Shown: positions 24,381-50,409 of the stretch, piece by piece | Position numbering within the stretch: the first letter of the stretch is position 1 | Layout: every line of letters begins with the position of its first letter | Assembly (NCBI GenBank): GCA_032622095.1 | Contig: CP136061.1 | Span: 11,299,287 to 11,363,286, forward strand | From: Siphonodentalium dalli | Lineage: Eukaryota; Mollusca; Scaphopoda; Gadilida; Siphonodentaliidae | Length of the DNA stretch: 64,000 nucleotides | Direction: 5' to 3' | Translations under genes and position numbers: made by a program | Notes under the pieces: generated by a model | Database searches by the model: none | What the model was told of the DNA's origin: nothing | What the model saw: the letters and a program-made list of their open reading frames with translations, nothing else

Positions 24381-24400
24381 CCGTACCATTGCGACGTTCA

Positions 24401-25984: not shown

Positions 25985-26135
25985 TGCGTGCACACGACAA
26001 AGCCATATATATTACCGCCGACTATACGTGCACACGGCAAAGCCAGGTATATTACCACCGACTACGTGCACACGACAAAGCCGGGTATATTACCACCGAC
26101 TACGTCTAGCCAGGTGTATTACCGTCGATTACGTA
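25985..26135 (+). repeat. 38-40 bp tandem repeat, 3.5 units
   Basis: CGTGCACACGACAAAGCC begins three units, each continuing through a GTATATTACC and CCGACTA stretch. A fourth partial unit (CGTCTAGCCAGGTGTATTAC) ends it. Confidence 0.85.
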
Positions 26136-26184
26136 TATAGGCTGCAGCAACTTCAAGTATGACCTTCATCGCAATCACCTTATA

Positions 26185-26640
26185 TGTGACCCGCCATATC
26201 AAATCCAGTCGTAAGTCGGGATTTTTTTACCCTGTGCCAATGCATTCTCTTATATATGCGAGTCGACCATAGGTCTCCTCTCATATATAAGAGAATGCAT
26301 TGGCCTAACAATTTTTTACAAATTTAATAATTTGTTCTTGTATTCTTTAACAATTTTATAATTTCACCCATACAGAGCCCCAGACAAACATGAGCAGACG
26401 ACACTCTTCTATATGCTATATATGTGTGTGGCTCCATGCAGGGTAATGGATGTTTTTTATTTTATGTCCTAATAATTGTAAGAAACATTTATTTAAAAAA
26501 CGTGATAAACAATTGTTAGGCCAATGCATTCTCTTATATATGCGAGGCGACCTATGGTCGATTCGCATATATAAGAGAATGCATTGGCACAGGGTAAAAA
26601 AAATCCCGACTTACAACTGGATTTGATATGGCGGGTCACA
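26185..26640. mobile_element. MITE, 456 bp, TA target duplication, double-hairpin inverted repeats
   Basis: Both ends begin TGTGACCCGCCATATCAAAT and the arms match for about 130 bp (26185-26317 against 26508-26640) with few differences. TA lies directly outside each end (26183-26184 and 26641-26642), as for Tc1/mariner-type elements. Each arm also contains its own palindrome, from CCAATGCATTCTCTTATATA to TATATAAGAGAATGCATTGG, so a single strand could fold as two small hairpins or one long one. The centre is AT-rich and non-coding. A decayed relative lies at 15516-15687, so the family is repeated in this genome. Confidence 0.9.
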
Positions 26641-26760
26641 TATGTGTGTTTTTACTTAAATGAACACAATCGTCGAAAAACATTTCTAGAAGGTTCGAAC
26701 AACCTATCACTAGAAGAGAACAAGTTCAGAAATGTATAATACTAATATGCTCAACCCAAA

Positions 26761-26814
26761 CCCTAACCCTAACCCTAACCCTAACCCTAATCCTAACCCT
26801 AACCCTAACCCTAA
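26761..26814 (+). repeat. Interstitial telomeric repeat, nine CCCTAA units
   Basis: Nine hexamers in a row; the sixth is TCCTAA. Flanking CAACCCAAA-like text is degenerate. CCCTAA is the C-rich strand of the TTAGGG telomere repeat of most animals. It lies about 410 bp upstream of the 56 bp satellite. Confidence 0.95.
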
Positions 26815-27093
26815 CCAACCCAAACCACCAAGACCATTAATTATAGAACAACTGCACACCGTGGTCAAACTTTCCCCGACTCGAATCGAGAAAACTTATG
26901 GATAGTTGGTGTGAGGTCCCACGTGAGCCACCGACCTGTGTATGAGTCCTGGAGGTGATAGGGCGGCCGTATCACGTGAGTCATCGACCTATGGATACGG
27001 CTTAGCTCACTTTGGTCCTACATCTCTCCAAGACGAGTTGTTGAGTTTACCCGGCTCACTCAATCGGTCTCCACAGTATTTCAGATTCACTTT

Positions 27094-27144
27094 CTACTAT
27101 ATGTTGTATTCTACTATATGTTGTATTCTACTATATGTTGTATT
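27094..27144 (+). repeat. 17 bp tandem repeat, three units
   Basis: CTACTATATGTTGTATT is repeated three times at the edge of the satellite. Confidence 0.85.
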
Positions 27145-30100
27145 GTTCTTTTGATGTTTGAAGTACTGTTTTCTGTGATGTTTTTCTGCATGATGTTTCT
27201 GTTTTCTTTGATTATCGTCCTGATGGTTGTTGTGTGTTTATGTATTCTGCATTGTTCATGCCTGTATCGTTGTGGTGAGGTACCGGTGGGTGTTTCTGTA
27301 TTCTGCATTGTTCATGCCTGTATCGTTGTGGTGAGGTAAGGGTGGGTATTTATGTATTCTGCATTGTTTATGCCTGTATCGTTGTGGTGAGGTAACGGTG
27401 GGTGTTTCTGTATTCTGCATTGTTCATGTCTGTATCGTTGTGGTGAGGTACCGGTGGGTGTTTCTGTATTATGCATTGTTCATGCCTGTATCGTTGTGGT
27501 GAGGTACCGGTGGGTGTTTCTGTATTCTGCATTGTTCATGTCTGTATCGTTGTGGTGAGGTACCGGTGGGTGTTTCTGTATTCTGCATTGTTCATGCCTG
27601 TATCGTTGTGGTGAGGTACCGGTGGGTGTTTCTGTATTCTGCATTGTTCATGCCTCTATCGTTGTGGTGAGGTACCGGTGGGTGTTTCTGTATTCTGCAT
27701 TGTTCATGCCTCTATCGTTGTGGTGAGGTACCGGTGGGTGTTTCTGTATTCTGCATTGTTCATGCCTGTATCGTTGTGGTGAGGTACCGGTGGGTGTTTC
27801 TGTATTTTGCATTGTTCATGCCTGTATCGTTGTGGTGAGGTACCGGTTGGTGTTTCTGTATTCTGCATTGTTCGTGCCTGTATCGTTGTGGTGAGGTACC
27901 GGTTGGTGTTTCTGTATTCTGCATTGTTCATGCCTGTATCGTTGTGGTGAGGTACCGGTGTGTGTTTCTGTATTTTGCATTGTTCATGCCTGTATCGTTG
28001 TGGTGAGGTACCGGTGGGTGTTTCTGTATTCTGCATTGTTCATGCCTGTATCGTTGTGGTGAGGTACCGGTGGGTGTTTCTGTATGCTGCATTGTTCATG
28101 CATGTATCGTTGTGGTGAGGTACCGGTGGGTGTTTCTGTATTCTGCATTGTTCATGCCTGTATCGTTGTGGTGAGGTACCGGTGGGTGTTTCTGTATTAT
28201 GCATTGTTCATGCCTGTATCGTTGTGGTGAGGTACCGGTGGGTGTTTCTGTATTCTGCATTGTTCATGCCTGTATCGTTGTGGTGAGGTACCGGTGGGTG
28301 TTTCTGTATTCTGCATTGTTCATGCCTGTATCGTTGTGGTGAGGTACCGGTGGGTGTTTCTGTATTCTGCATTGTTCATGCCTGTATCGTTGTGGTGAGG
28401 TACCGGTGGGTGTTTCTGTATTCCGCATTGTTCATGCCTGTATCGTTGTGGTGAGGTACCGGTGGGTGTTTCTGTATTCTGCATTGTTCATGCCTGTATC
28501 GTTGTGGTGAGGAACCGGTGGGTGTTTCTGTATTCTGCATTGTTCATGCCTGTATCGTTGTGGTGAGGTACCGGTGGGTGATTCTGTATTCTGCATTGTT
28601 CATGCCTGTATCGTTGTAGTGAGGTACCGGTGGGTGTTTCTGTATTTTGCATTGTTCATGCCTGTATCGTTGTGGTGAGGTACCGGTGGGTGTTTCTGTA
28701 TTCTGCATTGTTCATGCCTGTATCGTTGTGGTGAGGTACCGGTGGGTGTTTCTGTATTTTGCATTGTTCATGCCTGTATCGTTGTGGTGAGGTACCGGTG
28801 GGTGTTTCTGTATTCTGCATTGTTCATGCCTGTATCGTTGCGGTGAGGTACCGGTGGGTGTTTCTGTATTCTGCATTGTTCATGCCTGTATCGTTGTGGT
28901 GAGGTACCGGTGGGTGTTTCTGTATTCTGCATTGTTCATGCCTGTATCGTTGTGGTGAGGTACCGGTGGGTGTTTCTGTATTCCGCATTGTTCATGCCTG
29001 TATCGTTGTGGTGAGGTACCGGTGGGTATTTCTGTATTCTGCATTGTTCATGCCTGTATCGTTGTGGTGAGGTACCGGTGGGTGTTTCTGTATTCTGCAT
29101 TGTTCATGCCTGTATCGTTGTGGTGAGGTATCGGTTGGTGTTTCTGTATTCTGCATTGTTCATGCCTGTATCGTTGTGGTGAGGTATCGGTTGGTGTTTC
29201 TGTATTCTGCATTGTTCATGCCTGTATCGTTGTGGTGAGGTACCGGTGGGTGTTTCTGTATTCTGCATTGTTCATGCCTGTATCGTTGTGGTGAGGTACC
29301 GGTGTGTGTTTCTGTATGCTGCATTGTTCATGCCTGTATCGTTGTGGTGAGGTACCGGTGGGTGTTTCTGTATTCTGCATTGTGCATGTCTGTATCGATG
29401 TGGTGAGGTACCGGTGGGTGTTTCTGTATTCTGCATTGTTCATGTCTGTATCGTTGTGGTGAGGTACCGGTGGGTGTTTCTGTATTCTGCATTGTTCATG
29501 CCTGTATCGTTGTGGTGAGGTACCGTTGGGTGTTTCTGTATTTTGCATTGTTCATGCCTGTATCGTTGTGGTGGGGTACCGGTGGGTGTTTCTGTATTCT
29601 GCATTGTTCATGCCTGTATCGTTGTGGTGAGGTACCGGTGGGTGTTTCTGTATTCTGCATTGTTCATGCCTGTATCGTTGTGGTGAGGTACCGGTGGGTG
29701 TTTCTGTATTCTGCATTGTTCATGCCTGTATCGTTGTGGTGAGGTACCGGTGGGTGTTTCTGTATTCTGCATTGTTCATGCCTGTATCGTTGTGGTGAGG
29801 TACCGGTGGGTATTTCTGTATTCTGCATTGTTCATGCCTGTATCGTTGTGGTGAGGTACCGGTGGGTGTTTCTGTATTCTGCATTGTTCATGCCTGTATC
29901 GTTGTGGTGAGGTACGGGTTGGTATTTCTGTATTCTGCATTGTTTATGCCTGTATCGTTGTGGTGAGGTACCGGTGGGTATTTCTGTATTCTGCATTGTT
30001 CATGGCTGTATCGTTGTGGTGAGGTACCGGTGGGTGTTTCTGTATTCTGCATTGTTCATGCCTGTATCGTTGTGGTGAGGTACCGGTGGGTGTTTCTGTA

Positions 30101-31420
30101 TTCTGCATTGTTCATGCCTGTATCGTTGTGGTGAGGTACGGGTGGGTGTTTCTGTATTCTGCATTGTTCATGCCTGTATCGTTGTGGTGAGGTACCGGTG
30201 GGTATTTCTGTATTCTGCATTGTTCATGCCTGTATCGTTGTGGTGAGGTACCGGTGGGTGTTTCTGTATTCCGCATTGTTCATTCCTGTATCGTTGTGGT
30301 GAGGTACCGGTGGGTGTTTCTGTATTCTGCATTGTTCATGCCTGTATCGTTCTGGTGAGGTACCGGTGGGTGTTTCTGTATTCTGCATTGTTCATGCCTG
30401 TATCGTTGTGGTGAGGTACCGGTGGGTGTTTATGTATTCTGCATTGTTCATGCCTGTATCGTTGTAGTGAGGTACCGGTGGGTGTTTCTGTATTCTGCAT
30501 TGTTCATGCCTGTATCGTTGTAGTGAGGTACCGGTGGGTGTTTCTGTATTCTGCATTGTTCATGCCTGTATCGTTCTGGTGAGGTACCGGTGGGTGTTTC
30601 TGTATTCTGCATTGTTCATGCCTGTATCGTTGTAGTGAGGTACCGGTGGGTGTTTCTGTATTCTGCATTGTTCATGCCTGTATCGTTGTGGTGAGGTACC
30701 GGTGGGTGTTTCTGTATTCTGCATTGTTCATGCCTGTATCGTTGTGGTGAGGTACCGGTTGGTATTTCTGTATTCTGCATTGTTCATGCCTGTATCGTTG
30801 TAGTGAGGTACCGGTGTGTATTTCTGTATTCTGCATTGTTCCTGTATCGTTGTGGTGAGGTACCGGTTGGTGTTTCTGTATTCTGCATTGTTCATGCCTG
30901 TATCGTTGTGGTGAGGTACCGGTGTGTGTTTCTGTATTCTGCATTGTTCATGCCTGTATCGTTGTGGTGAGGTACCGGTGGGTGTTTCTGTATTCTGCAT
31001 TGTTCATGTCTGTATCGTTGTGGTGAGGTACCGGTGGGTATTTCTGTATTCCGCATTGTTCATGCCTGTATCGTTGTGGTGAGGTACCGGTGGGTGTTTC
31101 TGTATTCTGCATTGTTCATGCCTGTATCGTTGTGGTGAGGTACCGGTGAGTGTTTCTGTATTCTGCATTGTTCATGCCTGTATCGTTGTGGTGAGGTACC
31201 GGTATGTGTTTCTGTATTCTGCATTGTTCATGCCTGTATCGTTGTGGTGGGGTACCGGTGGGTGTTTCTGTATTCTGCATTGTTCATGCCTGTATCGTTG
31301 TGGTGAGGTACCGGTGGGTGTTTATGTATTCTGCATTGTTCATGCCTGTATCGTTGTGGTGAGGTACCGGTGGGTGTTTATGTATTCTGCATTGTTCATG
31401 CCTGTATCGTTGTGGTGAGG

Positions 31421-31648
31421 TACCGGGGTGGGTTTTTCTGTATTCTGCATTGTTCATGCCTGTATCGTTGTGGTGAGGTACCGGTTGGTGTTTCTGTGAT
31501 CTGCATTGTTCATGCCTGTATCGTTGTGGTGAGGTACCGGGGTGGGTTTTTCTGTATTCTGCATTGTTCATGCCTGTATCGTTGTGGTGAGGTACCGGTT
31601 GGTGTTTCTGTGATCTGCATTGTTCATGCCTGTATCGTTGTGGTGAGG
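31421..31648 (+). repeat. 114 bp two-unit duplication with a +2 bp variant
   Basis: TACCGGGGTGGGTTTTTCTG starts at 31421 and at 31535. Each is followed by a GGTTGG unit carrying TCTGTGATCTGC. The block is one 58 bp plus one 56 bp unit, copied in tandem. Confidence 0.9.
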
Positions 31649-33602
31649 TACCGGTGTGTGTTTCTGTATTCCGCGTTGTTCATTCCTGTATCGTTGTGGT
31701 GAGGTACCGGTGGGTGTTTCTGTATTCTACATTGTTCATGCCTGTATCGTTGTGGTGAGGTACCGGTGGGTGTTTCTGTATTCTGCATTGTTCATGCCTG
31801 TATCGTTGTGGTGAGGTACCGGTTGGTGTTTCTGTATTCTGCATTGTTCATGCCTGTATCGTTGTGGTGAGGTACCGGTGTGTGTTTCTGTATTCTGCAT
31901 TGTTCATGCCTGTATCGTTGTGGTGAGGTACCGGTGGGTGTTTCTGTATTCTGCATTGTTCATGCCTGTATCGTTGTGGTGAGGTACCGGTGTGTGTTTC
32001 TGTATTCTGCATTGTTCATGCCTGTATCGTTGTGGTGGGGTACCGGTGGGTGTTTCTGTGTTCTGCATTGTTCATGCCTGTATCGTTGTGGTGAGGTACC
32101 GGTGGGTATTTCTGTATTCTGCATTGTTCATGCCTGTATCGTTGTGGTGAGGTACCGGTGGGTGTTTCTGTATTCTGCATTGTTCGTGCCTGTATCGTTG
32201 TAGTGAGGTACCGGTAGGTGTTTCTGTATTCCGCATTGTTCATGCCTGTATCGTTGTGGTGGGGTACCGGTGGGTATTTCTGTATTCTGCATTGTTCATG
32301 CCTGTATCGTTGTGGTGAGGTACCGGTGGGTGTTTCTGTATTCTGCATTGTTCATGCCTGTATCGTTGTGGTGAGGTACCGGTGGGTGTTTCTTTATTTT
32401 GCATTGTTCATGCCTGTATCGTTGTGGTGAGGTACCGGTGGGTGTTTCTGTATTCTGCATTGTTCATGCCTGTATCGTTGTGGTGAGGTACCGGTGGGTG
32501 TTTCTGTATTCTGCATTGTTCATGCCTGTATCGTTGTGGTGGGGTACCGGTGGGTGTTTCTGTATTCCGCATTGTTCATGCCTGTATCGTTGTGGTGGGG
32601 TACCGATGGGTGTTTCTGTATTCTGCATTGTTCATGCCTGTATCGTTGTGGTGAGGTACCGGTGGGTGTTTCTGTATTCTGCATTGTTCATGCCTGTATC
32701 GTTGTGGTGGGGTACCGGTGGGTGTTTCTGTATTCTGCATTGTTCATGCCTGTATCGTTGTAGTGAGGTACCGGTGGGTATTTCTGTATTCTGCATTGTT
32801 CATGCCTGTATCGTTGTGGTGGGGTACCGGTGGGTGTTTCTGTATTCTGCATTGTTTATGCCTGTATCGTTGTGGTGAGGTACCGGTGGGTATTTCTGTA
32901 TTCTGCATTGTTCATGCCTGTATCGTTGTGGTGAGGTACCGGTGGGTGTTTCTGTATTCTACATTGTTCATGCCTGTATCGTTGTGGTGAGGTACCGGTG
33001 GGTGTTTCTGTATTCTGCATTGTTCATGCCTGTATCGTTGTGGTGAGGTACCGGTGGGTGTTTCTGTATTCTGCATTGTTCATGCCTGTATCGTTGTGGT
33101 GAGGTACCGGTTGGTGTTTCTGTATTCTGCATGGTTCATGCCTGTATCGTTATGGTGAGGTACCGGTGGGTGTTTCTGTATTCTGCATTGTTCATGCCTG
33201 TATCGTTGTGGTGAGGTACCGGTGTGTGTTTCTGTATTCTGCATTGTTCATGCCTGTATCGTTGTGGTGAGGTACCGGTGGGTGTTTCTGTATTCTGCAT
33301 TATTCATGCCTGTATCGTTGTGGTGAGGTACCGGTGGGTGTTTCTGTATTCTGCATTGTTCATGCCTGTATCGTTGTGGTGAGGTACCGGTTGGTGTTTC
33401 TGTATTCTGCATTGTTCATGCCTGTATCGTTGTGGTGAGGTACCGGTGTGTGTTTCTGTATTCTGCATTGTTCATGCCTGTATCGTTGTGGTGAGGTACC
33501 GGTGGGTGTTTCTGTATTCTGCATTATTCATGCCTGTATCGTTGTGGTGAGGTACCGGTGGGTGTTTCTGTATTCTGCATTGTTCATGCCTGTATCGTTG
33601 TG

Positions 33603-36600
33603 GTGAGGTACCGGTGGGTGTTTCTGTATTCTGCATTGTTCATGCCTGTATCGTTGTGGTGAGGTACCGGTGTGTATTTCTGTATTCTGCATTGTTCATG
33701 CCTGTATCGTTGTGGTGAGGTACCGGTGTGTATTTCTGTATTCTGCATTGTTCATGCCTGTATCGTTGTGGTGAGGTACCGGTGGGTGTTTATGTATTCT
33801 GCATTGTTCATGCCTGTATCGTTGTGGTGAGGTACCGGTTGGTGTTTCTGTATTCTGCATTGTTCATGCCTGTATCGTTGTGGTGAGGTACCGGTGGGTG
33901 TTTCTGTATTCTGCATTGTTCATGCCTGTATCGTTGTGGTGAGGTACCGGTGGGTGTTTCTGTATTCTGCATTGTTCATGCCTGTATCGTTGTGGTGAGG
34001 TACCGGTTGGTGTTTCTGTATTCTGCATTGTTCATGCCTGTATCGTTGTGGTGAGGTACCGGTGGGTGTTTCTGTATTCTGCATTGTCCATGCCTGTATC
34101 GTTGTGGTGAGGTACCGGTGGGTGTTTCTGTATTTTGCATTGTTCATGCCTGTATCGATGTGGTGAGGTACCGGTGGGTGTTTCTGTATTCTGCATTGTT
34201 CATGCCTGTATCGTTGTGGTGAGGTACCGGTGGGTGTTTCTGTATTCTGCATTGTTCATGCCTGTATCGTTGTGGTGAGGTACCGGTGGGTGTTTCTGTA
34301 TTCTGCATTGTCCATGCCTGTATCGTTGTGGTGAGGTACCGGTGGGTGTTTCTGTATTTTGCATTGTTCATGCCTGTATCGATGTGGTGAGGTACCGGTG
34401 GGTGTTTCTGTATTCTGCATTGTTCATGCCTGTATCGTTGTGGTGAGGTACCGGTGGGTGTTTCTGTATTCTGCATTGTTCATGCCTGTATCGTTGTGGT
34501 GAGGTACCGGTGGGTGTTTCTGTATTCTGCATTGTTCATGCCTGTATCGATGTGGTGAGGTACCGGTGGGTGTTTCTGTATTCTGCATTGTTCATGCCTG
34601 TATCGTTGTGGTGAGGTACCGGTGGGTGTTTCTGTATTCTGCATTGTTCATGCCTGTATCGTTGTGGTGAGGTACCGGTGGGTGTTTCTGTATTCTGCAT
34701 TGTCCATGCCTGTATCGTTGTGGTGAGGTACCGGTGGGTGTTTCTGTATTTTGCATTGTTCATGCCTGTATCGATGTGGTGAGGTACCGGTGGGTGTTTC
34801 TGTATACTGCATTGTTCATGCCTGTATCGTTGTGGTGAGGTACCGGTGGGTGTTTCTGTATTCTGCATTGTTCATGCCTGTATCGTTGTGGTGAGGTACC
34901 GGTGGGTGTTTCTGTATTCTGCATTGTTCATGCCTGTATCGTTGTGGTGAGGTACCGGTGGGTGTTTCTGTATTCTGCATTGTCCATGCCTGTATCGTTG
35001 TGGTGAGGTACCGGTGGGTGTTTCTGTATTTTGCATTGTTCATGCCTGTATCGATGTGGTGAGGTACCGGTGGGTGTTTCTGTATTCTGCATTGTTCATG
35101 CCTGTATCGTTGTGGTGAGGTACCGGTGGGTGTTTCTGTATTCTGCATTGTTCATGCCTGTATCGTTGTGGTGAGGTACCGGTGGGTGTTTCTGTATTCT
35201 GCATTGTTCATGCCTGTATCGTTGTGGTGAGGTACCGGTGGGTGTTTCTGTATTCTACATTGTTCATGCCTGTATCGTTGTGGTGAGGTACCGGTGGGTA
35301 TTTCTGTATTCTGCATTGTTCATGTCTGTATCGTTGTGGTGAGGTACCGGTGGGTGTTTCTGTATTCTGCATTGTTCATGCCTGTATCGTTGTGGTGAGG
35401 TACCGGTTGGTGTTTCTGTATTCTGCATTGTTCATGCCTGTATCGTTGTGGTGAGGTACCGGTGGGTGTTTCTGTATTCTGCATTGTTCATGCCTGTATC
35501 GTTGTGGTGAGGTACCGGTGGGTGTTTCTGTATTTTGCATTGTTCATGCCTGTATCGATGTGGTGAGGTACCGGTGGGTGTTTCTGTATTCTGCATTGTT
35601 CATGCCTGTATCGTTGTGGTGAGGTACCGGTGGGTGTTTCTGTATTCTGCATTGTTCATGCCTGTATCGTTGTGGTGAGGTACCGGTAGGTGTTTCTGTA
35701 TACTGCATTGTTCATGCCTGTATCGTTGTGGTGAGGTACCGGTGGGTGTTTATGTATTCCGCATTGTTGATGTCTGTATCGTTGTGGTGAGGTACCGGTG
35801 GGTGTTTATGTATTCTGCATTGTTCATGCCTGTATCGTTGTGGTGAGGTACCGGTGTGTGTTTCTGTATTCTGCATTGTTCATGCCTGTATCGTTGTGGT
35901 GAGGTACCGGTGGGTGTTTCTGTATTCTGCATTGTTCATGCCTGTATCGTTGTGGTGAGGTACCGGTGGGTGTTTCTGTATTCTGCATTGTTCATGCCTG
36001 TATCGTTGTGGTGAGGTACCGGTGGGTGTTTCTGTATTCTGCATTGTTCATGCCTGTATCGTTGTGGTGAGGCACCGGTGGGTGTTTCTGTATTCTGCAT
36101 TGTTCATGCCTGTATCGTTGTGGTGAGGTACCGGTGGGTGTTTATGTATTCTGCATTGTTCATGCCTGTATCGTTGTGGTGAGGTACCGGTGGGTATTTC
36201 TGTATTCTGCATTGTTCATGCCTGTATCGTTGTGGTGAGGTACCGGTGGGTGTTTCTGTATTCTGCATTGTTCATGCCTGTATCGTTGTGGTGAGGTACC
36301 GGTGGGTGTTTCTGTATTCTGCATTGTTCATGCCTGTATCGTTGTGGTGGGGTACCGGTGGGTGTTTCTGTATTCTGCATTGTTCATGTCTGTATCGTTG
36401 TGGTGAGGTACCGGTGGGTGTTTCTGTATTCTGCATTGTTCATGCCTGTATCGTTGTGGTGAGGTACCGGTGTGTGTTTCTGTATTCTGCATTGTTCATG
36501 CCTGTATCGTTGTGGTGAGGTACCGGTGGGTGTTTCTGTATTCTGCATTGTTCATGCCTGTATCGTTGTGGTGAGGTACCGGTGGGTGTTTCTGTATTCT

Positions 36601-39600
36601 GCATTGTTCATGCCTGTATCGTTGTGGTGAGGTACCGGTGGGTGTTTCTGTATTCCGCATTGTTCATGCCAGTATCGTTGTGGTGAGGTACCGGTTGGTG
36701 TTTCTGTATTCTGCATTGTTCATGCCTGTATCGTTGTGGTGAGGTACCGGTGGGTGTTTCTGTATTCTGCATTGTTCATGCCTGTATCGTTGTGGTGAGG
36801 TACCGGTGGGTGTTTATGTATTCTGCATTGTTCATGCCTGTATCGTTGTGGTGAGGTACCGGTGGGTATTTCTGTATTCTGCATTGTTCATGCCTGTATC
36901 GTTGTGGTGAGGTACCGGTGGGTGTTTCTGTGTTCTGCATTGTTCATGCCTGTATCGTTGTGGTGAGGTACCGGTGAGTGTTTCTGTATTCTGCATTGTT
37001 CATGTCTGTATCGATGTGGTGAGGTACCGGTGGGTGTTTCTGTATTCTGCATTGTTCATGCCTGTATCGTTGTGGTGAGGTACCGGTGTGTATTTCTGTA
37101 TTCTGCATTGTTTATGCCTGTATCGTTGTGGTGAGGTACCGGTGGGTGTTTCTGTATTCTGCATTGTTCATGCCTGTATCGTTGTGGTGAGGTACCGGTG
37201 GGTGTTTCTGTATTCTGCATTGTTCATGCCTGTATCGTTGTGGTGAGGTACCGGTGGGTATTTCTGTATTCTGCATTGTTCATGCCTGTATCGTTGTGGT
37301 GAGGTACCGGTGGGTATTTCTGTATTCTGCATTGTTCATGCCTGTATCGTTGTGGTGAGGTACCGGTGGGTGTTTCTGTATGCTGCATTGATCATGCCTG
37401 TATCGTTGTCGTGAGGTACCGGTGGGTGTTTCTGTATTCTGCATTGTTCATGCCTGTATCGATGTGGTGAGGTACCGGTGGGTGTTTCTGTATTCTGCAT
37501 TGTTCATGCCTGTATCGTTGTGGTGAGGTACCGGTGGGTGTTTCTGTATTCTGCATTGTTCATGCCTGTATCGTTGTGGTGAGGTACCGGTGGGTATTTC
37601 TGTATTCTGCATTGTTCATGCCTGTATCGTTGTGGTGAGGTACCGGTTGGTGTTTCTGTATTCTGCATTGTTCATGCCTGTATCGTTGTGGTGGGGTACC
37701 GGTGTGTGTTTCTGTATTCTGCATTGTTCATGTCTGTATCGTTGTGGTGAGGTACCGGTTGGTGTTTTTGTATTCTGCATTGTTCATGCCTGTATCGTTG
37801 TGGTGAGGTACCGGTGGGTGTTTTTGTATTCTGCATTGTTCATCCCTGTATCGTTGTGGTGAGGTACCGGTGGGTGTTTCTGTATTATGCATTGTTCATG
37901 CCTGTATCGTTGTGGTGAGGTACCGGTGGGTGTTTCTGTATTCTGCATTGTTCATGCCTGTATCGTTGTGGTGAGGTACCGGTGGGTGTTTCTCTATTCT
38001 GCATTGTTCATGCCTGTATCGTTGTGGTGAGGTACCGGTGGGTGTTTCTGTATTCTGCATTGTTCATGCCTGTATCGTTGTGGTGAGGTACCGGTGGGTG
38101 TTTCTGTATTCTGCATTGTTCATGTCTGTATCGTTGTGGTGAGGTACCGGTGGGTGTTTCTGTATTCTGCATTGTTCATGCCTGTATCGTTGTGGTGAGG
38201 TAAGGGTGGGTATTTCTGTATTCTGCATTGTTCATGGCTGTATCGTTGTGGTGAGGTACCGGTTGGTGTTTCTGTATTCTACATTGTTCATGCCTGTATC
38301 GTTGTGGTGAGGTACCGGTTGGTGTGTCTGTATTCTACATTGTTCATGCCTATATCGTTGTGGTGAGGTACCGGTATGTGTTTCTGTATTCTGCATTGTT
38401 CATGCCTGTATCGTTGTGGTGAGGTACCGGTGGGTATTTCTGTATTCTGCATTGTTCATGCCTGTATCGTTGTGGTGAGGTACCGGTGGGTATTTCTGTA
38501 TTCTGCATTGTTCATGCCTGTATCGTTGTGGTGAGGTACCGGTGGGTATTTCTGTATTCTGCATTGTTCATGCCTGTATCGTTGTGGTGAGGTACCGGTG
38601 GGTGTTTCTGTATTCCGCATTGTTCATGCCTGTATCGTTGTGGTGAGGTAAGGGTGGGTATTTCTGTATTCTGCATTGTTCATGGCTGTATCGTTGTGGT
38701 GGGGTACCGGTTGGTGTTTCTGTATTCCACATTGTTCATGCCTGTATCGTTGTGGTGAGGTACCGGTGGGTGTTTCTGTATTCTGCATTGTTCATGCCTG
38801 TATCGTTGTGGTGAGGTACCGGTGGGTGTTTCTGTATTCTGCATTGTTCATGCGTGTATCGATGTGGTGAGGTACCGGTGGGTGTTTCTGTATTCTGCAT
38901 TGTTCATGCATGTATCGTTGTGGTGAGGTACCGGTGGGTGTTTCTGTATTCTGCATTGTTCATGCCTGTATCGTTGTGGTGAGGTACCGGTGGGTGTTTC
39001 TGTATTCTGCATTGTTCATGCCTGTATCGTTGTGGTGAGGTACCGGTGGGTGTTTCTGTATTCTGCATTGTTCGTGCCTGTATCGTTGTGGTGAGGTACC
39101 GGTGGGTATTTCTGTATTCTGCATTGTTCATGTCTGTATCGTTGTGGTGAGGTACCGGTGGGTGTTTCTGTATTCTACATTGTTCATGCCTGTATCGTTG
39201 TGGTGAGGTACCGGTGAGTGTTTCTGTTTTCTGCATTGTTCATGTCTGTATCGTTGTGGTGAGGTACCGGTGGGTGTTTCTGTAGTATGCATTGTTCATG
39301 CCTGTATCGATGTGGTGAGGTACCGGTTTGTGTTTATGTATTCCGCATTGTTCATGCCTGTATCGTTGTGGTGAGGTACCGGTTGGTGTTTCTGTATTCT
39401 GCATTGTTCATGCCTGTATCGTTGTGGTGAGGTACCGGTGAGTGTTTATGTATTCTGCATTGTTCATGCCTGTATCGTTGTGGTGAGGTACCGGTGTGTG
39501 TTTCTATATTCTGCATTGTTCATGCCTGTATCGTTGTGGTGAGGTACCGGTGGGTGTTTCTGTATTCTGCATTGTTCATGCCTGTATCGTTGTGGTGAGG

Positions 39601-39930
39601 TACCGGTGGGTGTTTCTGTATTCTGCATTGTTCATGCCTGTATCGTTGTGATGAGGTACCGGTTTGTGTTTATGTATTCCGCATTGTTCATGCCTGTATC
39701 GTTGTGGTGAGGTACCGGTGGGTGTTTCTGTATTCTGCATTGTTCATGCCTGTATCGTTGTGGTGAGGTACCGGTGTGTATTTCTGTATTCTGCATTGTT
39801 CATGCCTGTATCGTTGTGGTGAGGTACCGGTGGGTGTTTCTGTATTCTGCATTGTTCATGCCTATATCGTTGTGGTGAGGTACCGGTGGGTGTTTCTGTA
39901 TTTTGCATTGTTCATGCCTGTATCGTTGTC
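33603..39930 (+). repeat. Higher-order repeat block, copy A (113 units, 6,328 bp)
   Basis: Every distinctive variant unit that I tested recurs 6,328 bp downstream, exactly 113 units: for example TGTATACTGC at 34803, TTGTTGATGTC at 35765, GAGGCACCGG at 36070, CATGCCAGTATCG at 36666, CATCCCTG at 37852, TTCTCTATTCTG at 37989 and CTGTAGTATGC at 39282. The left limit is set by a mismatch at 33602 against 39930. Confidence 0.9.
33920..35150 (+). repeat. Nested 4-, 7- and 5-unit repeats inside block A
   Basis: The group TGTCCATGCC, then TTTTGCATTG, then TATCGATGTGG recurs with TGTCCATGCC near 34087, 34311, 34703 and 34983. The intervals are 224, 392 and 280 bp, that is 4, 7 and 5 units. The same nested group is repeated in block B at 40248-41476. 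Confidence 0.9.
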
Positions 39931-42900
39931 GTGAGGTACCGGTGGGTGTTTCTGTATTCTGCATTGTTCATGCCTGTATCGTTGTGGTGAGGTACCGGTG
40001 TGTATTTCTGTATTCTGCATTGTTCATGCCTGTATCGTTGTGGTGAGGTACCGGTGTGTATTTCTGTATTCTGCATTGTTCATGCCTGTATCGTTGTGGT
40101 GAGGTACCGGTGGGTGTTTATGTATTCTGCATTGTTCATGCCTGTATCGTTGTGGTGAGGTACCGGTTGGTGTTTCTGTATTCTGCATTGTTCATGCCTG
40201 TATCGTTGTGGTGAGGTACCGGTGGGTGTTTCTGTATTCTGCATTGTTCATGCCTGTATCGTTGTGGTGAGGTACCGGTGGGTGTTTCTGTATTCTGCAT
40301 TGTTCATGCCTGTATCGTTGTGGTGAGGTACCGGTTGGTGTTTCTGTATTCTGCATTGTTCATGCCTGTATCGTTGTGGTGAGGTACCGGTGGGTGTTTC
40401 TGTATTCTGCATTGTCCATGCCTGTATCGTTGTGGTGAGGTACCGGTGGGTGTTTCTGTATTTTGCATTGTTCATGCCTGTATCGATGTGGTGAGGTACC
40501 GGTGGGTGTTTCTGTATTCTGCATTGTTCATGCCTGTATCGTTGTGGTGAGGTACCGGTGGGTGTTTCTGTATTCTGCATTGTTCATGCCTGTATCGTTG
40601 TGGTGAGGTACCGGTGGGTGTTTCTGTATTCTGCATTGTCCATGCCTGTATCGTTGTGGTGAGGTACCGGTGGGTGTTTCTGTATTTTGCATTGTTCATG
40701 CCTGTATCGATGTGGTGAGGTACCGGTGGGTGTTTCTGTATTCTGCATTGTTCATGCCTGTATCGTTGTGGTGAGGTACCGGTGGGTGTTTCTGTATTCT
40801 GCATTGTTCATGCCTGTATCGTTGTGGTGAGGTACCGGTGGGTGTTTCTGTATTCTGCATTGTTCATGCCTGTATCGATGTGGTGAGGTACCGGTGGGTG
40901 TTTCTGTATTCTGCATTGTTCATGCCTGTATCGTTGTGGTGAGGTACCGGTGGGTGTTTCTGTATTCTGCATTGTTCATGCCTGTATCGTTGTGGTGAGG
41001 TACCGGTGGGTGTTTCTGTATTCTGCATTGTCCATGCCTGTATCGTTGTGGTGAGGTACCGGTGGGTGTTTCTGTATTTTGCATTGTTCATGCCTGTATC
41101 GATGTGGTGAGGTACCGGTGGGTGTTTCTGTATACTGCATTGTTCATGCCTGTATCGTTGTGGTGAGGTACCGGTGGGTGTTTCTGTATTCTGCATTGTT
41201 CATGCCTGTATCGTTGTGGTGAGGTACCGGTGGGTGTTTCTGTATTCTGCATTGTTCATGCCTGTATCGTTGTGGTGAGGTACCGGTGGGTGTTTCTGTA
41301 TTCTGCATTGTCCATGCCTGTATCGTTGTGGTGAGGTACCGGTGGGTGTTTCTGTATTTTGCATTGTTCATGCCTGTATCGATGTGGTGAGGTACCGGTG
41401 GGTGTTTCTGTATTCTGCATTGTTCATGCCTGTATCGTTGTGGTGAGGTACCGGTGGGTGTTTCTGTATTCTGCATTGTTCATGCCTGTATCGTTGTGGT
41501 GAGGTACCGGTGGGTGTTTCTGTATTCTGCATTGTTCATGCCTGTATCGTTGTGGTGAGGTACCGGTGGGTGTTTCTGTATTCTACATTGTTCATGCCTG
41601 TATCGTTGTGGTGAGGTACCGGTGGGTATTTCTGTATTCTGCATTGTTCATGTCTGTATCGTTGTGGTGAGGTACCGGTGGGTGTTTCTGTATTCTGCAT
41701 TGTTCATGCCTGTATCGTTGTGGTGAGGTACCGGTTGGTGTTTCTGTATTCTGCATTGTTCATGCCTGTATCGTTGTGGTGAGGTACCGGTGGGTGTTTC
41801 TGTATTCTGCATTGTTCATGCCTGTATCGTTGTGGTGAGGTACCGGTGGGTGTTTCTGTATTTTGCATTGTTCATGCCTGTATCGATGTGGTGAGGTACC
41901 GGTGGGTGTTTCTGTATTCTGCATTGTTCATGCCTGTATCGTTGTGGTGAGGTACCGGTGGGTGTTTCTGTATTCTGCATTGTTCATGCCTGTATCGTTG
42001 TGGTGAGGTACCGGTAGGTGTTTCTGTATACTGCATTGTTCATGCCTGTATCGTTGTGGTGAGGTACCGGTGGGTGTTTATGTATTCCGCATTGTTGATG
42101 TCTGTATCGTTGTGGTGAGGTACCGGTGGGTGTTTATGTATTCTGCATTGTTCATGCCTGTATCGTTGTGGTGAGGTACCGGTGTGTGTTTCTGTATTCT
42201 GCATTGTTCATGCCTGTATCGTTGTGGTGAGGTACCGGTGGGTGTTTCTGTATTCTGCATTGTTCATGCCTGTATCGTTGTGGTGAGGTACCGGTGGGTG
42301 TTTCTGTATTCTGCATTGTTCATGCCTGTATCGTTGTGGTGAGGTACCGGTGGGTGTTTCTGTATTCTGCATTGTTCATGCCTGTATCGTTGTGGTGAGG
42401 CACCGGTGGGTGTTTCTGTATTCTGCATTGTTCATGCCTGTATCGTTGTGGTGAGGTACCGGTGGGTGTTTATGTATTCTGCATTGTTCATGCCTGTATC
42501 GTTGTGGTGAGGTACCGGTGGGTATTTCTGTATTCTGCATTGTTCATGCCTGTATCGTTGTGGTGAGGTACCGGTGGGTGTTTCTGTATTCTGCATTGTT
42601 CATGCCTGTATCGTTGTGGTGAGGTACCGGTGGGTGTTTCTGTATTCTGCATTGTTCATGCCTGTATCGTTGTGGTGGGGTACCGGTGGGTGTTTCTGTA
42701 TTCTGCATTGTTCATGTCTGTATCGTTGTGGTGAGGTACCGGTGGGTGTTTCTGTATTCTGCATTGTTCATGCCTGTATCGTTGTGGTGAGGTACCGGTG
42801 TGTGTTTCTGTATTCTGCATTGTTCATGCCTGTATCGTTGTGGTGAGGTACCGGTGGGTGTTTCTGTATTCTGCATTGTTCATGCCTGTATCGTTGTGGT

Positions 42901-45900
42901 GAGGTACCGGTGGGTGTTTCTGTATTCTGCATTGTTCATGCCTGTATCGTTGTGGTGAGGTACCGGTGGGTGTTTCTGTATTCCGCATTGTTCATGCCAG
43001 TATCGTTGTGGTGAGGTACCGGTTGGTGTTTCTGTATTCTGCATTGTTCATGCCTGTATCGTTGTGGTGAGGTACCGGTGGGTGTTTCTGTATTCTGCAT
43101 TGTTCATGCCTGTATCGTTGTGGTGAGGTACCGGTGGGTGTTTATGTATTCTGCATTGTTCATGCCTGTATCGTTGTGGTGAGGTACCGGTGGGTATTTC
43201 TGTATTCTGCATTGTTCATGCCTGTATCGTTGTGGTGAGGTACCGGTGGGTGTTTCTGTGTTCTGCATTGTTCATGCCTGTATCGTTGTGGTGAGGTACC
43301 GGTGAGTGTTTCTGTATTCTGCATTGTTCATGTCTGTATCGATGTGGTGAGGTACCGGTGGGTGTTTCTGTATTCTGCATTGTTCATGCCTGTATCGTTG
43401 TGGTGAGGTACCGGTGTGTATTTCTGTATTCTGCATTGTTTATGCCTGTATCGTTGTGGTGAGGTACCGGTGGGTGTTTCTGTATTCTGCATTGTTCATG
43501 CCTGTATCGTTGTGGTGAGGTACCGGTGGGTGTTTCTGTATTCTGCATTGTTCATGCCTGTATCGTTGTGGTGAGGTACCGGTGGGTATTTCTGTATTCT
43601 GCATTGTTCATGCCTGTATCGTTGTGGTGAGGTACCGGTGGGTATTTCTGTATTCTGCATTGTTCATGCCTGTATCGTTGTGGTGAGGTACCGGTGGGTG
43701 TTTCTGTATGCTGCATTGATCATGCCTGTATCGTTGTCGTGAGGTACCGGTGGGTGTTTCTGTATTCTGCATTGTTCATGCCTGTATCGATGTGGTGAGG
43801 TACCGGTGGGTGTTTCTGTATTCTGCATTGTTCATGCCTGTATCGTTGTGGTGAGGTACCGGTGGGTGTTTCTGTATTCTGCATTGTTCATGCCTGTATC
43901 GTTGTGGTGAGGTACCGGTGGGTATTTCTGTATTCTGCATTGTTCATGCCTGTATCGTTGTGGTGAGGTACCGGTTGGTGTTTCTGTATTCTGCATTGTT
44001 CATGCCTGTATCGTTGTGGTGGGGTACCGGTGTGTGTTTCTGTATTCTGCATTGTTCATGTCTGTATCGTTGTGGTGAGGTACCGGTTGGTGTTTTTGTA
44101 TTCTGCATTGTTCATGCCTGTATCGTTGTGGTGAGGTACCGGTGGGTGTTTTTGTATTCTGCATTGTTCATCCCTGTATCGTTGTGGTGAGGTACCGGTG
44201 GGTGTTTCTGTATTATGCATTGTTCATGCCTGTATCGTTGTGGTGAGGTACCGGTGGGTGTTTCTGTATTCTGCATTGTTCATGCCTGTATCGTTGTGGT
44301 GAGGTACCGGTGGGTGTTTCTCTATTCTGCATTGTTCATGCCTGTATCGTTGTGGTGAGGTACCGGTGGGTGTTTCTGTATTCTGCATTGTTCATGCCTG
44401 TATCGTTGTGGTGAGGTACCGGTGGGTGTTTCTGTATTCTGCATTGTTCATGTCTGTATCGTTGTGGTGAGGTACCGGTGGGTGTTTCTGTATTCTGCAT
44501 TGTTCATGCCTGTATCGTTGTGGTGAGGTAAGGGTGGGTATTTCTGTATTCTGCATTGTTCATGGCTGTATCGTTGTGGTGAGGTACCGGTTGGTGTTTC
44601 TGTATTCTACATTGTTCATGCCTGTATCGTTGTGGTGAGGTACCGGTTGGTGTGTCTGTATTCTACATTGTTCATGCCTATATCGTTGTGGTGAGGTACC
44701 GGTATGTGTTTCTGTATTCTGCATTGTTCATGCCTGTATCGTTGTGGTGAGGTACCGGTGGGTATTTCTGTATTCTGCATTGTTCATGCCTGTATCGTTG
44801 TGGTGAGGTACCGGTGGGTATTTCTGTATTCTGCATTGTTCATGCCTGTATCGTTGTGGTGAGGTACCGGTGGGTATTTCTGTATTCTGCATTGTTCATG
44901 CCTGTATCGTTGTGGTGAGGTACCGGTGGGTGTTTCTGTATTCCGCATTGTTCATGCCTGTATCGTTGTGGTGAGGTAAGGGTGGGTATTTCTGTATTCT
45001 GCATTGTTCATGGCTGTATCGTTGTGGTGGGGTACCGGTTGGTGTTTCTGTATTCCACATTGTTCATGCCTGTATCGTTGTGGTGAGGTACCGGTGGGTG
45101 TTTCTGTATTCTGCATTGTTCATGCCTGTATCGTTGTGGTGAGGTACCGGTGGGTGTTTCTGTATTCTGCATTGTTCATGCGTGTATCGATGTGGTGAGG
45201 TACCGGTGGGTGTTTCTGTATTCTGCATTGTTCATGCATGTATCGTTGTGGTGAGGTACCGGTGGGTGTTTCTGTATTCTGCATTGTTCATGCCTGTATC
45301 GTTGTGGTGAGGTACCGGTGGGTGTTTCTGTATTCTGCATTGTTCATGCCTGTATCGTTGTGGTGAGGTACCGGTGGGTGTTTCTGTATTCTGCATTGTT
45401 CGTGCCTGTATCGTTGTGGTGAGGTACCGGTGGGTATTTCTGTATTCTGCATTGTTCATGTCTGTATCGTTGTGGTGAGGTACCGGTGGGTGTTTCTGTA
45501 TTCTACATTGTTCATGCCTGTATCGTTGTGGTGAGGTACCGGTGAGTGTTTCTGTTTTCTGCATTGTTCATGTCTGTATCGTTGTGGTGAGGTACCGGTG
45601 GGTGTTTCTGTAGTATGCATTGTTCATGCCTGTATCGATGTGGTGAGGTACCGGTTTGTGTTTAAGTATTCCGCATTGTTCATGCCTGTATCGTTGTGGT
45701 GAGGTACCGGTTGGTGTTTCTGTATTCTGCATTGTTCATGCCTGTATCGTTGTGGTGAGGTACCGGTGAGTGTTTATGTATTCTGCATTGTTCATGCCTG
45801 TATCGTTGTGATGAGGTACCGGTTTGTGTTTATGTATTCCGCATTGTTCATGCCTGTATCGTTGTGGTGAGGTACCGGTGGGTGTTTCTGTATTCTGCAT

Positions 45901-46090
45901 TGTTCATGCCTGTATCGTTGTGGTGAGGTACCGGTGTGTATTTCTGTATTCTGCATTGTTCATGCCTGTATCGTTGTGGTGAGGTACCGGTGGGTGTTTC
46001 TGTATTCTGCATTGTTCATGCCTATATCGTTGTGGTGAGGTACCGGTGGGTGTTTCTGTATTTTGCATTGTTCATGCCTGTATCGTTGTC
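39931..46090 (+). repeat. Higher-order repeat block, copy B (110 units, 6,160 bp)
   Basis: Second copy of the block at 33603. I noticed only one substitution (T at 39337, A at 45665) and one deletion of exactly three units: 168 bp present at 39483-39650 is missing at the 45810/45811 junction. After about 46150 the sequence no longer follows copy A. Confidence 0.9.
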
Positions 46091-47042
46091 GTGAGGTACC
46101 GGTGGGTGTTTCTGTATTCTGCATTGTTCATGCCTGTATCGTTGTGGTGAGGTACCGGTGGGTGTTTCTGTATTCTGCATTGTTCATGTCTGTATCGTTG
46201 TGGCGAGGTACCGGTGGGTGTTTCTGTATTCTGCATTGTTCATGCCTGTATCGTTGTGGTGAGGTACCGGTGGGTGTTTCTATATTCTGCATTGTTCATG
46301 CCTGTATCGTTGTGGTGAGGTACCGGTAGGTGTTTCTGTATGCTGCATTGTTCATGCCTGTATCGTTGTGGTGAGGTACCGGTGTGTGTTTCTGTATTCC
46401 GCATTGTTCATGCCTGTATCGTTGTGGTGAGGTACCGGTTGGTGTTTCTGTATTCTGCATTGTTCATGCCTGTATCGTTGTGGTGAGGTACCGGTGGGTG
46501 TTTCTGTATTCTGCATTGTTCATGCCTGTATCGTTGTGGTGAGGTACCGGTGGATGTTTCTGTATTCTGCATTGTTCATGCCTGTATCGTTGTGGTGAGG
46601 TACCGGTGGGTGTTTCTGTATTCTGCATTGTTCATGCCTGTATCGTTGTGGTGAGGTACCGGTGGGTGTTTCTGTATTCTGCATTGTTCATGCCTGTATC
46701 GTTGTGGTGAGGTACCGGTGGGTGTTTCTGTATTCTGCATTGTTCATGCCTGTATCGTTGTGGTGAGGTACCGGTGGGTGTTTATGTATACTACATTGTT
46801 CAATGCCTGTATCGTTGTGGTGAGGTACCGGTGGGTGTTTCTGTATTCTGCATTGTTCATGCCTGTATCGTTGTGGTGAGGTACCGGTGGGTGTTTCTGT
46901 ATTCTGCATTGTTCATGCCTGTATCGTTGTGGTGAGGTACCGGTGGATGTTTCTGTATTCTGCATTGTTCATGCCTGTATCGTTGTGGTGAGGTACCGGT
47001 TGGTGTTTCTGTATTCTGCATTGTTCATGTCTGTATGGTTGT

Positions 47043-47064
47043 GGTGAGGTACCGGTGTGTGTTT
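47043..47064 (+). repeat. Left target-site-like duplication (22 bp)
   Basis: Satellite text starting GGTGAGGTACCGGTG and ending GTGTTT lies directly left of the insertion and recurs at 50411-50432 with one mismatch (T or A at the sixteenth base). It is also normal satellite sequence, so its value rests on the phase: removing the insertion and one copy rejoins the array in register. Confidence 0.65.
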
Positions 47065-47202
47065 GTTTTATGGTTTATGGCAATTATGCCAAAGGGGATG
47101 TCAGGAATGATAACTTATTGGCAAGGTCCGCAAGCACCACACCGACACACCGAGCAGGCAGATAAAAACCCGCGTGATGCATCGACTGGTAACCGGAAGG
47201 CG
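47064..47202 (-). repeat. Terminal direct repeat, left copy (139 bp)
   Basis: Identical in all 139 positions to 50271-50409 as far as I can read. It contains GGCAATTATGCC (near-palindrome), GGTCCGCAAGCACCACACCG and GACTGGTAACCGGAAGGCG. In this copy the similarity could extend into unique DNA (TGAACCCACGGCTA), which is absent at the right copy. Confidence 0.9.
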
Positions 47203-47339
47203 TGAACCCACGGCTATCTAAAAGTCAACAAAAACAGTTAGGATAGTAGAACGGTTGATTATTCACCGGTTATGTGAAGTTTTAATTATGCGATAATAGT
47301 ATAAGGCACATACATGTATATATTGAGTATACAGAGAAG

Positions 47340-47510
47340 TTACACACCCATAGTTACACAAATATAGATACAGGTCATCGTAGCATGCATTGTATGAGTA
47401 TATATACCTGTAGTTCCCGATAAATATAGTTAAAGGTCATCGTAGTGTGCATTGGATGAGAATATATACATGTAGCTCCCGATAAATATAGTTAAAGGTC
47501 ATCGTAGTAT
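47340..47510 (+). repeat. 62 bp tandem repeat, about 2.5 units
   Basis: TAAAGGTCATCGTAG starts at 47431 and 47493, with a CAGGTCATCGTAG relative near 47371. Between them lie a TATATACATGTAG-like stretch and CCCGATAAATATAG. Weaker relatives (GAAGGTTATCG, AAGGGTTATCG) appear at about 47740-47805. Confidence 0.75.
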
Positions 47511-48417
47511 ATTAGATATGGATATTGTTTGCAAATTCCCAAATATATGTTTATGACGTATATTACCACATTTCCATCCATAGTTATGATGCATAGTAAC
47601 CCTCCCCATTTATGTATGATGTATACGACGCACATCTTACAGTTATAATGTATATCACTCCTTTCCCATTTCATAGTTAAGTTCTATGCCAACATGTTAA
47701 CGTGTATGTCAGATATGATAATTTGGGCAAACTATATATAGTTGAAGGTTATCGTCTCTTATTGGACGAGCAGTTACTCATAATATCGTTAAGGGTTATC
47801 GTTGCCCATAGGATGAAAATTGTTAGTAAATTCATAAATATATGGATAGAGTTAAATGGTTTCCATAGATGCATACTTACAGCAACAGTTTATCGCTGTC
47901 AGATATTATATATTTTGATTTTATAAACCTTATTATAAATGGCACACCTTTTCTGGTGGTATGTTTATGTATATGTTTATTGTTATGCAGTGTTTGACTA
48001 TCAGTATATCCTGATGGTTTTGGAGGAAAAATAATTAACCAATTTTGGAAAATGTTTACTAAGACCATGTCCAAAAGATAGCATTTAAAAAGTTGGGATC
48101 GAAAAAACTATACCAGCAAAGAGTTCTCAAGAGCATAACTCTGGTATAACAGACATCAAATACAGCCTGTTTGTGTGATAGGTTTCGGCCCTTAATGCTC
48201 GACCTAATTGGTCACCAGAGAGGGGCCGTATAGAACAAATTACCATTCTATACCTCCAGCTGGAAAAATGTGGCCAAATTTCCCTCTCCATCAAAATACA
48301 TGACGTCAAACTAGATAAAAAATCCGCGCGAACGAGAGTCTCTCATACCGGTAAACACGAGTCCGTTAATTGTTTAGATTTTACACGATATATTAACACG
48401 AGATTCGTGTGATGAAC

Positions 48418-49860
48418 GAGGCGCGTTCACGTGGTTGTAGGGAAATCATACATGGGGGGAGTTGTGTTTATATTTTATAACAAATCAATTTCATGCGATA
48501 ATGTACGCTATAACTGAAAAGCTATGTTACCTTTTTATAAGAATATAGGTCAGAGTCCTCATATGTGGTCCCTCACGTAATATATGATTGCCCGTGCGGC
48601 ATATATGCCTGATTTTAGAAAACACTACATATGTCATGGTACTGAATACAAATGTGTAGTCTACCCCAAGATGGCTGTCACAGCTCTGAAGTACCAGACG
48701 TTACAGAAACACGTCACAACCACGCGCTCCGGTATGACGTACTTACCAGTGACGTCACAAGTCAGGTGCGTGCAACAATTATTTAAAGGGATATATATCG
48801 GATGCGTTTTATTTACAAACTAAGTTGTAGATTTCAGAAAATAATTTCGTTGTATGTAACCAACTGTCATGTTGGTGTGTGCATAATATATATTAATTCC
48901 AAGATAGATTATGGTGAATGGTTCCGAGCTGAGAGCATTACATTAAGTTGGTGTGAGCTCTTTTGAAGAGCGTAGTTGCATGAGCATGTACTAGTACTAG
49001 TAAGTGGCTAATAACCATACCTTTGAAGAGTATTCATACTATTGTAAAAAATATCGTAAATGGGTATCTAAAATGGACGTGTCCATCGCGAAATTAATGA
49101 TTATAACAACGAGGCGCGTTCACGTGGTGTTAGCGAAATCCTAAGGTGGAGTTGCGTTTATATTATTATAAAAATTCAATATCATGCATCAATATATGCT
49201 ATCCCCTAAAAGTCACGGAAACAAATTCGTTTTATATAACCAACTGTAATGTTGGGGTGTGGATATTATATCTTAATTCCAAGATAGATTATGTTGAATA
49301 GTTCTGAGCTGGGCCATACCATTAAGTTAGCGTGAGCTCTGTTAAAGAGCGTTGTTGTTTGGATGTGTAAGTGACTCAACATAAAATTTTATAAATTATC
49401 GTAAATGGGTATCAAAAATGGACATGCCTACCGCGAAATTAGTGATTATAACAAAGAGGCGCGTTCGCGTGGTGGTAGGAAAATCCTAAGGGGTGTGATT
49501 ATATCATTATACAAATTTAATTTCATCGCCAATGTGTTCTATAACCTAAAAGCTACGGAAACAAATTCGTGCTATATGACCAACTGTACTACTGGGATGT
49601 GGATGCTACATATTAATTCCAAGATTGATTATGGTGAATGCTTCCGAGCTGCGGCCATTATTTAGGTTAGTATGGGCTCGTATAAAGAGCGTTGTTACTT
49701 GAGCATATAAGTGATTAAAACCATATCATTAAAGAGTATTCATAACATTGTAAAATATTGTAAACAGGTATCAAAATGGACGTGATCATTCCGAAATTAA
49801 TGATTATAACATACCGCTATTACCATTTATAATTGTTATATATGCTAGGAATCAAATTAC
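48418..49860 (+). repeat. 345 bp tandem repeat, three units, the first split by an insertion
   Basis: GAGGCGCGTTC starts at 48418, 49111 and 49456. The last two are 345 bp apart. Shared landmarks in order are GCGTTCACGTGG, CCAACTGTAATGTTGG-like text, TTAATTCCAAGATAGATTAT, GAGCT(G/C), AAGAGCGTTGTT and AAATTAATGATTATAAC. The first unit carries about 330 bp of extra DNA (about 48525-48835) between its CTATAAC part and its AACCAACTG part. A fourth unit is begun at about 49860 (ATATAACCAACTATACTGTT). Short frames here are not credible genes. Confidence 0.85.
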
Positions 49861-50270
49861 CTAATATAACCAACTATACTGTTGGAAGTAATGTTAGTCT
49901 ATGTGTCAATTAGCAAAAGTGTAATAATAATGAACTCAGTGCCACCATCTGTGATATATGTAGGTATACATGTATATATACATATTTAACACGTGCAATC
50001 AATAAGTTTTGTAACTAGTTTAGTAACTAGTAATTTTTTGCAACCATGTACATGCCATCGGTACCTGTATCGCACTAATGCCAATATGGCCGATCTAAAG
50101 TACATAACGTCATGAAGATCAACAAATGAACGGGTACTTAAAATAAGAACGAGTCTGTCTATTAACTAAAGGTATAATAAACTGAATATAACAAGAGTGT
50201 GAAATTAAGTCGTCAAACGTTTAAAAACGAATGTTGCGTGTTGCCAAAAGCCTCACCGACGGATAGTATA

Positions 50271-50409
50271 TGTTTTATGGTTTATGGCAATTATGCCAAA
50301 GGGGATGTCAGGAATGATAACTTATTGGCAAGGTCCGCAAGCACCACACCGACACACCGAGCAGGCAGATAAAAACCCGCGTGATGCATCGACTGGTAAC
50401 CGGAAGGCG
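50271..50409 (-). repeat. Terminal direct repeat, right copy (139 bp)
   Basis: Perfect copy of 47064-47202. Its right end (GGAAGGCG, then A) abuts the satellite directly. Confidence 0.9.

Follow-up and report, generated by a model that had tools for sequence, protein, structure and literature searches.

In the unequal-exchange model of Smith (1976), as related in part of the review by Talbert and Henikoff (2022; PMC8997354), runs of satellite units of variable size are duplicated and deleted out of register, and the same part of that review describes both unequal sister-chromatid exchange and break-induced replication for satellites. Duplicated array parts are visible as long parallel lines in self dot plots of pea CEN6 (PMC10027222), and segmental duplications inside satellite arrays have been described in rice (Ma and Jackson, 2006, as cited there). 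In human alpha-satellite, the higher-order repeats and layers presented in sections of PMC11062924 are recent, highly identical multi-unit copies, and haplotypes differ in array structure. According to passages in PMC8997354 and PMC11062924, simple unequal crossover accounts poorly for some centromeric arrays.

The 56-bp satellite examined here shares features with each of these systems, possibly including the structural differences between human haplotypes. As in the model of Smith (1976), in the form cited above, runs of variable size appear to have been duplicated and deleted out of register; the difference is that here, in a satellite of 56 bp, each event can be made out separately, with no centromere role implied. 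Compared with pea CEN6 and rice, the complete tandem blocks are small (0.2-6.3 kb) and adjacent, and both host and satellite are different. Compared with human alpha-satellite as presented in those sections, the locus has no regular higher-order unit, only two copies of the block, and a much shorter array and unit. The turnover of satellite blocks is often inferred from averages; within one array of 150 kb, single duplications of 4 to 113 units, their relative ages, their join points and the footprint of a deletion are readable, and the size distribution and relative timing of satellite exchanges could be measured. The largest of these events, the duplication of 113 units, is a well-preserved example of a known, textbook process and is ordinary in kind.

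The window, the whole stretch of 64,000 nucleotides that was analysed, corresponds to C1:11299287-11363286 in a genome assembly of 2.227 Gb and 9 contigs, and a further 200 kb beyond it were also examined. The satellite array in the window (array I) starts at 27231, and wrap-around unit decomposition divides its first part (27231-47063, + strand) into 356 units, including two end fragments. On the same strand the array continues from 50410 to the window end at 64000, and then for another 112.9 kb up to a gap of 100 N at C1:11476222 (176936 in window-continued coordinates), for a total length of ~150 kb. When five shorter end or edge pieces are left out, array I consists of 2,613 units longer than 46 bp, 2,575 of which are exactly 56 bp and 38 of odd length. 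There are 554 distinct unit sequences, with the consensus present in 675 copies. Units differ from each other by 4.1% on average, and this divergence is nearly flat with distance, at 4.0% for neighbours (0.0399, vs 0.0415 for random pairs) and 4.2% for units that are 800 units apart.

Within the first part of the array, a block of 113 units (copy A, 33603-39930, + strand) is followed directly by a second copy of 110 units, three units shorter (copy B, 39931-46090, + strand). Positions 33603-39336 match 39931-45664 exactly over 5,734 bp, or 102 exact units, at a lag of 6,328 bp, which is a whole number of units (113 x 56). After a single mismatch at 39337/45665, the copies are again identical up to 39482/45810, and past a deletion the match resumes at a shift of 6,160, with 39617-40000 equal to 45777-46160 over 384 bp. 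When the two copies are aligned, 6,229 of 6,230 bases agree, with one substitution (0.016%) and one gap of 168 bp (three units), both as described in the earlier note, whose further remark that single units are far less alike than the two blocks is also borne out (mean pairwise unit difference of 3.8% in 27231-47063, against that one substitution). The duplication that it described is likewise real in the assembled sequence, with ends that need one adjustment: identity runs 70 bp beyond those it gave, from copy A to 40000 and from copy B to 46160. Outside the pair, to the left of 33603 and to the right of 40000, mismatch density is back to its ordinary level; scored as a segment extending 210 bp further left, the pair has a divergence of 0.10%.

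The copies share variants found nowhere else in the arrays of the window. Thirty of the 112 whole units of block A are private 56-mers in this sense, and 25 of them recur at +6,328, two at +6,160, and three do not recur: the unit at 39330, which holds the substitution, and those at 39498 and 39610, which lie at the deletion. The earlier note's claim that every private variant checked recurs 6,328 bp downstream needs a small correction, as after 39650 the lag is +6,160. With up to one mismatch allowed, each of two private 90-mers of the block has exactly two occurrences in the 2.23-Gb genome, 6,328 bp apart. Shuffling the units never produced exact repeats of the observed length: the longest reached 549 bp when all units of 27231-47063 were shuffled 100 times, 452 bp in 200 shuffles from which copy B had been left out, and 481 bp when the full array of 150 kb was shuffled 40 times. 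At lag 113, the best in-register window spanning 110 units has 11 differing columns, a count that takes in the deletion and the edges; every other tested lag gives at least 181.

The two copies abut in the order X-U-U-Y, with a block length equal to the lag and a shared tract of 70 bp at the junction (39931-40000, + strand), which is the same as 33603-33672 and 46091-46160. Because identity extends over these 70 bp, the exchange point may lie anywhere within the tract. At 7,994 random in-register sites, the median identity tract is 39 bp long and 16% of the tracts measure at least 70 bp (on aligned unit columns, after 6 of 8,000 sites with tracts of at least 480 bp had been dropped); a tract of this length thus also turns up at random, and no special exchange site is needed.

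The sole substitution between the copies is T at 39337 against A at 45665 (+ strand). The T is the common base, present in 592 of 599 units in the window, and the substitution is therefore read as a change in copy B. The three units that are present in copy A and missing from copy B can be placed at 39483-39650 (+ strand), a position that is ambiguous by 34 bp, which is a small correction to the deletion noted earlier at 45810. At the corresponding site, copy B has a unit (45770-45825, + strand) which combines variant 7A of unit 39442 with variants 42A, 55T, and 56T of unit 39610, and from its sequence we read this hybrid as the probable footprint of an in-register deletion exchange inside a unit. 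A deletion accounts for the hybrid in a single step and is preferred over an insertion, and we infer that three units were lost rather than gained. The opposite possibility, an insertion of three units into copy A, was considered and is less favoured, as its donor would have to divide a single unit's variants; the three extra units have near matches elsewhere, the best with 1 mismatch in 168. The order of events would then be duplication first, after which copy B underwent one mutation and one small deletion.

The 113-unit pair is one of many block repeats in the array. Array I has 21 exact repeats of at least 482 bp on 17 lags, a threshold set by the maximum of 481 bp in the 40 shuffles of this array, and 20 of the 21 are also longer than 549 bp, the top value of any shuffle. 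Some are pieces of one pair, such as three at 101 units. For twelve of the 21 repeats the lag is an exact multiple of 56, and for nine it is off by 1 to 13 bases, for which the 38 odd-length units could be the source. When lags with an exact repeat of at least 330 bp were scored, one segment per lag, 22 segments were obtained. Nine of them cover at least 0.96 of their lag and are taken as complete tandem blocks; the other 13 are partial or more distant. The complete blocks have sizes of 113, 65, 41, 36, 23, 20, 15, 13, and 4 units, so that the pair described above is the largest, and it is also among the least diverged. Segment divergence ranges from 0 to 1.49%, against the background of 4.1%, with 0% for the block of 65 units, 0.09% for those of 41 and 20 units, and 0.14% for that of 36 units. 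At 101 units, 83 units match with 3 substitutions and the full period has 53 (0.94%), and the full period of the 18-unit pair has 13 (1.29%); these two are therefore not intact tandem pairs, and the remainder of the 101-unit block is reworked. The graded divergence of the blocks looks like a series of ages rather than a single event.

We consider it probable that one recent homologous misalignment event, in register, duplicated the 113 units in tandem. The stretch would have been duplicated by unequal sister-chromatid exchange or by break-induced replication, in the latter case with a restart 113 units behind the break; copy B would then have acquired one point mutation and lost three units in register. 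The array as a whole may have been turned over by a series of such duplications, of which the 113-unit event would be one member, and the array-wide pattern fits recurrent unequal exchange or break-induced replication. A recent exchange is best supported because the lag is a multiple of the unit, identity at the junction is ordinary, the hybrid unit is present, and the blocks form a graded series. The assembled sequence shows the tandem block, its register, the hybrid unit, the graded series in this array, and block repeats in a second one; from these we infer that the organism itself carries the duplication and that one or other of the two recombination pathways made it. In a simple neutral model in which runs of units were duplicated or deleted at random and in register (exponential sizes with a mean of 20 or 40 units, 12 runs, not fitted), the longest exact repeats were 24-115 units, with a tandem arrangement (length equal to lag) in 5 of 12 runs, and the observed 102 exact units were reached in 1 of 12. 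The ratio of neighbour to random-pair difference was 0.89-1.07, and unit divergence was 0.058-0.289, above the observed 0.041. All that the simulation can say is that a pattern of this kind is to be expected.

A second array of the same satellite lies on the same contig. All 55 genomic matches of a variant 29-mer lie on C1 in forward orientation, 26 of them in array I and 29 at 12.048-12.163 Mb (array II); a consensus 40-mer has 2,528 forward and 0 reverse matches, 1,433 in array I and the other 1,095 not individually placed. A centromeric satellite would be expected on most chromosomes or in association with centromeric histone; some centromeres are chromosome-specific. Array II starts at 12041145, ~0.56 Mb to the right of the gap, and has its last match at 12162989, for a length of ~122 kb, and the parts seen (12041145-12090000 and from 12160001 on) contain no N. 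Its first 48.9 kb hold 39 exact repeats of at least 482 bp (the threshold taken from the array I shuffles), many of which are combinations of the same blocks, with a longest repeat of 2,708 bp.

The left flank of array II matches 21925-26417 and 26417-27233 of the window, with ~12.3 kb of other sequence between the two stretches, and the break in the match falls near the centre of a 462-bp palindrome. Beyond these stretches, comparison of window positions 1-21924 with C1:12010001-12041144 revealed only short repeat matches. The flanks of the two arrays differ by 37 substitutions in 4,112 aligned bases (0.9%), and the leaders next to the arrays differ by 10 in 524, some of them at differing repeats; the leader of array II is without (AACCCT)n and otherwise matches that of array I. 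Part of the shared flank (query 579-1501) is a dispersed element whose other copies are 85-93% identical, and of the 40 candidates scored, the copy at array II is the sole full-length match at 99%. In the 48.9 kb of ~122 kb seen, units do not follow the same order in the two arrays, and the longest exact stretch common to both, away from the gap end, is 408 bp. At the gap end, the last 2,164 bp of array I (C1:11474058-11476221; L012:772-2935) recur in array II at 12062840 and 12067379, which would be explained either by exchange between the arrays or by an unmerged contig end. To the right of the gap, an anchor of 1.5 kb (L016:8000-9500) has a full-length inverted copy at 97% identity 1.1 Mb away (C1:12615657-12617158), which may be either a segmental duplication or part of a partly purged haplotype, and for three other anchors of the region, none of the 40 candidates scored in each case was a further full-length copy. 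A whole haplotype, consisting of the window side, the gap, the inverted piece, and the array II side, may have been left in the scaffold; the evidence is mixed, and one of the four anchors fits.

Divergence between the two copies (1/6,230) is ~56-fold lower than between the flanks of the two arrays (37/4,112), for which a Poisson estimate gives roughly at least 7-fold on the assumption of equal rates, the counts being small and the range wide. It is very likely that the 113-unit block arose after the two loci had separated. A further reading, to which we give rather less than an even chance, is that arrays I and II represent one satellite locus, as two haplotypes or as paralogues of very recent origin, with flanks that differ by 0.9% and a unit order that, over the stretch seen, is rewritten almost completely, and that they still trade blocks of kilobase size, such as the exact one of 2,164 bp at the gap. 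If this were true, only one of them would have the 113-unit duplication, whose age would be less than that of their split by a factor of several to tens, and the locus would be one at which the rate and size spectrum of satellite exchange are countable directly.

Satellite arrays are prone to assembly duplication artefacts, and a single stretch of 6.3 kb could have been walked twice, through a graph loop or unmerged overlapping ends, with the differences between copies A and B originating in the consensus. The near identity of the copies would be expected in that case, and array I does end at an N gap, with its last 2,164 bp recurring exactly in array II. Indeed, the region is not cleanly assembled, as seen from the gap, the block common to both arrays, and the inverted 97% copy of the anchor; this counts against a genuine duplication and gives a local assembly error some prior. 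However, there is no N within the window, and a loop would not age, whereas blocks of other sizes are graded from 0 to 1.5% and array II has blocks as well. The three-unit difference also comes with a proper hybrid unit, a trace that an in-register collapse could equally have produced. We therefore regard an artefact as unlikely; the assembly duplication that the earlier note offered as its alternative is weakened by the 0.9% between the flanks and by the non-collinear units, and keeps a small share of the probability. Much less probable is an allelic origin of copies A and B, in which mixing of haplotypes would have set both alleles of a single stretch side by side. Arrays I and II have a common left flank and could be two haplotypes of one locus in the scaffold, but if they are alleles, then the allelic difference is 0.9% with non-collinear units, against 1 in 6,230 between the copies, and at 0.016% these are therefore unlikely to be misplaced alleles. 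The two private 90-mers of the block, moreover, have no match in array II. If the arrays are paralogues, an allelic reading of copies A and B is formally possible.

The least credible of the alternatives is that the pair is the first step of a regular higher-order repeat with a unit of 6.3 kb. One 113-unit block does occur twice, but it has no third copy and lag 113 no further pair, array-wide divergence is 0.039-0.042 at all 17 tested lags (0.0402 at lag 113), and each of the remaining eight complete tandem blocks has a size of its own. The earlier note's suggestion of a very recent large unequal exchange thus stands as the best supported explanation, and its higher-order repeat, with two copies and no clearly favoured lag, is not supported. 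Break-induced replication or template switching, in place of a reciprocal crossover, is a subset of this explanation rather than exclusive of it, and we would put it at somewhat below an even chance. It predicts the same in-register tandem duplication and has been proposed for centromeric satellites in the part of PMC8997354 cited above, but nothing separates it from unequal crossover, and a single new substitution in 6.2 kb, itself weak evidence, gives no sign of error-prone synthesis.

The duplicated 113 units lie within an array that has a sole large interruption, an insertion of 3,346 bp (47064-50409, + strand) with identical terminal direct repeats of 139 bp (47064-47202 and 50271-50409). 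Its interior contains repeats at 73-81% identity (48415-49811) and a 62-bp tandem repeat (47360-47510). No stop-to-stop frame longer than 86 aa was found in the insertion, nor a clear target-site duplication by eye, and it looks like a non-coding terminal-repeat element. The 462-bp palindrome in the left flank, which is imperfect and lies at 26182-26643, is a dispersed foldback-type element with more copies in the flanks examined, and between it and the array start are ~10 copies of the telomere-type motif AACCCT (26753-26816). Elsewhere in the window there are a 34-bp minisatellite in 82 copies (17469-20257) and 122-bp repeats (6035-6390 and 6735-7187). No RNA families or tRNAs were detected across the window at the thresholds used, a query of viral contigs with a 22-mer of the unit returned zero matches, and a literature search by phrase for a 56-bp satellite found no paper. 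The longest start-to-stop frame listed in the satellite is 159 aa, and stop-to-stop frames outside the arrays reach 130 aa (with 17401-20299 left out). The satellite is also asymmetric between strands across 27231-64000, the + strand being G/T-rich with a GC skew of ~0.33 and an AT skew of ~-0.57.
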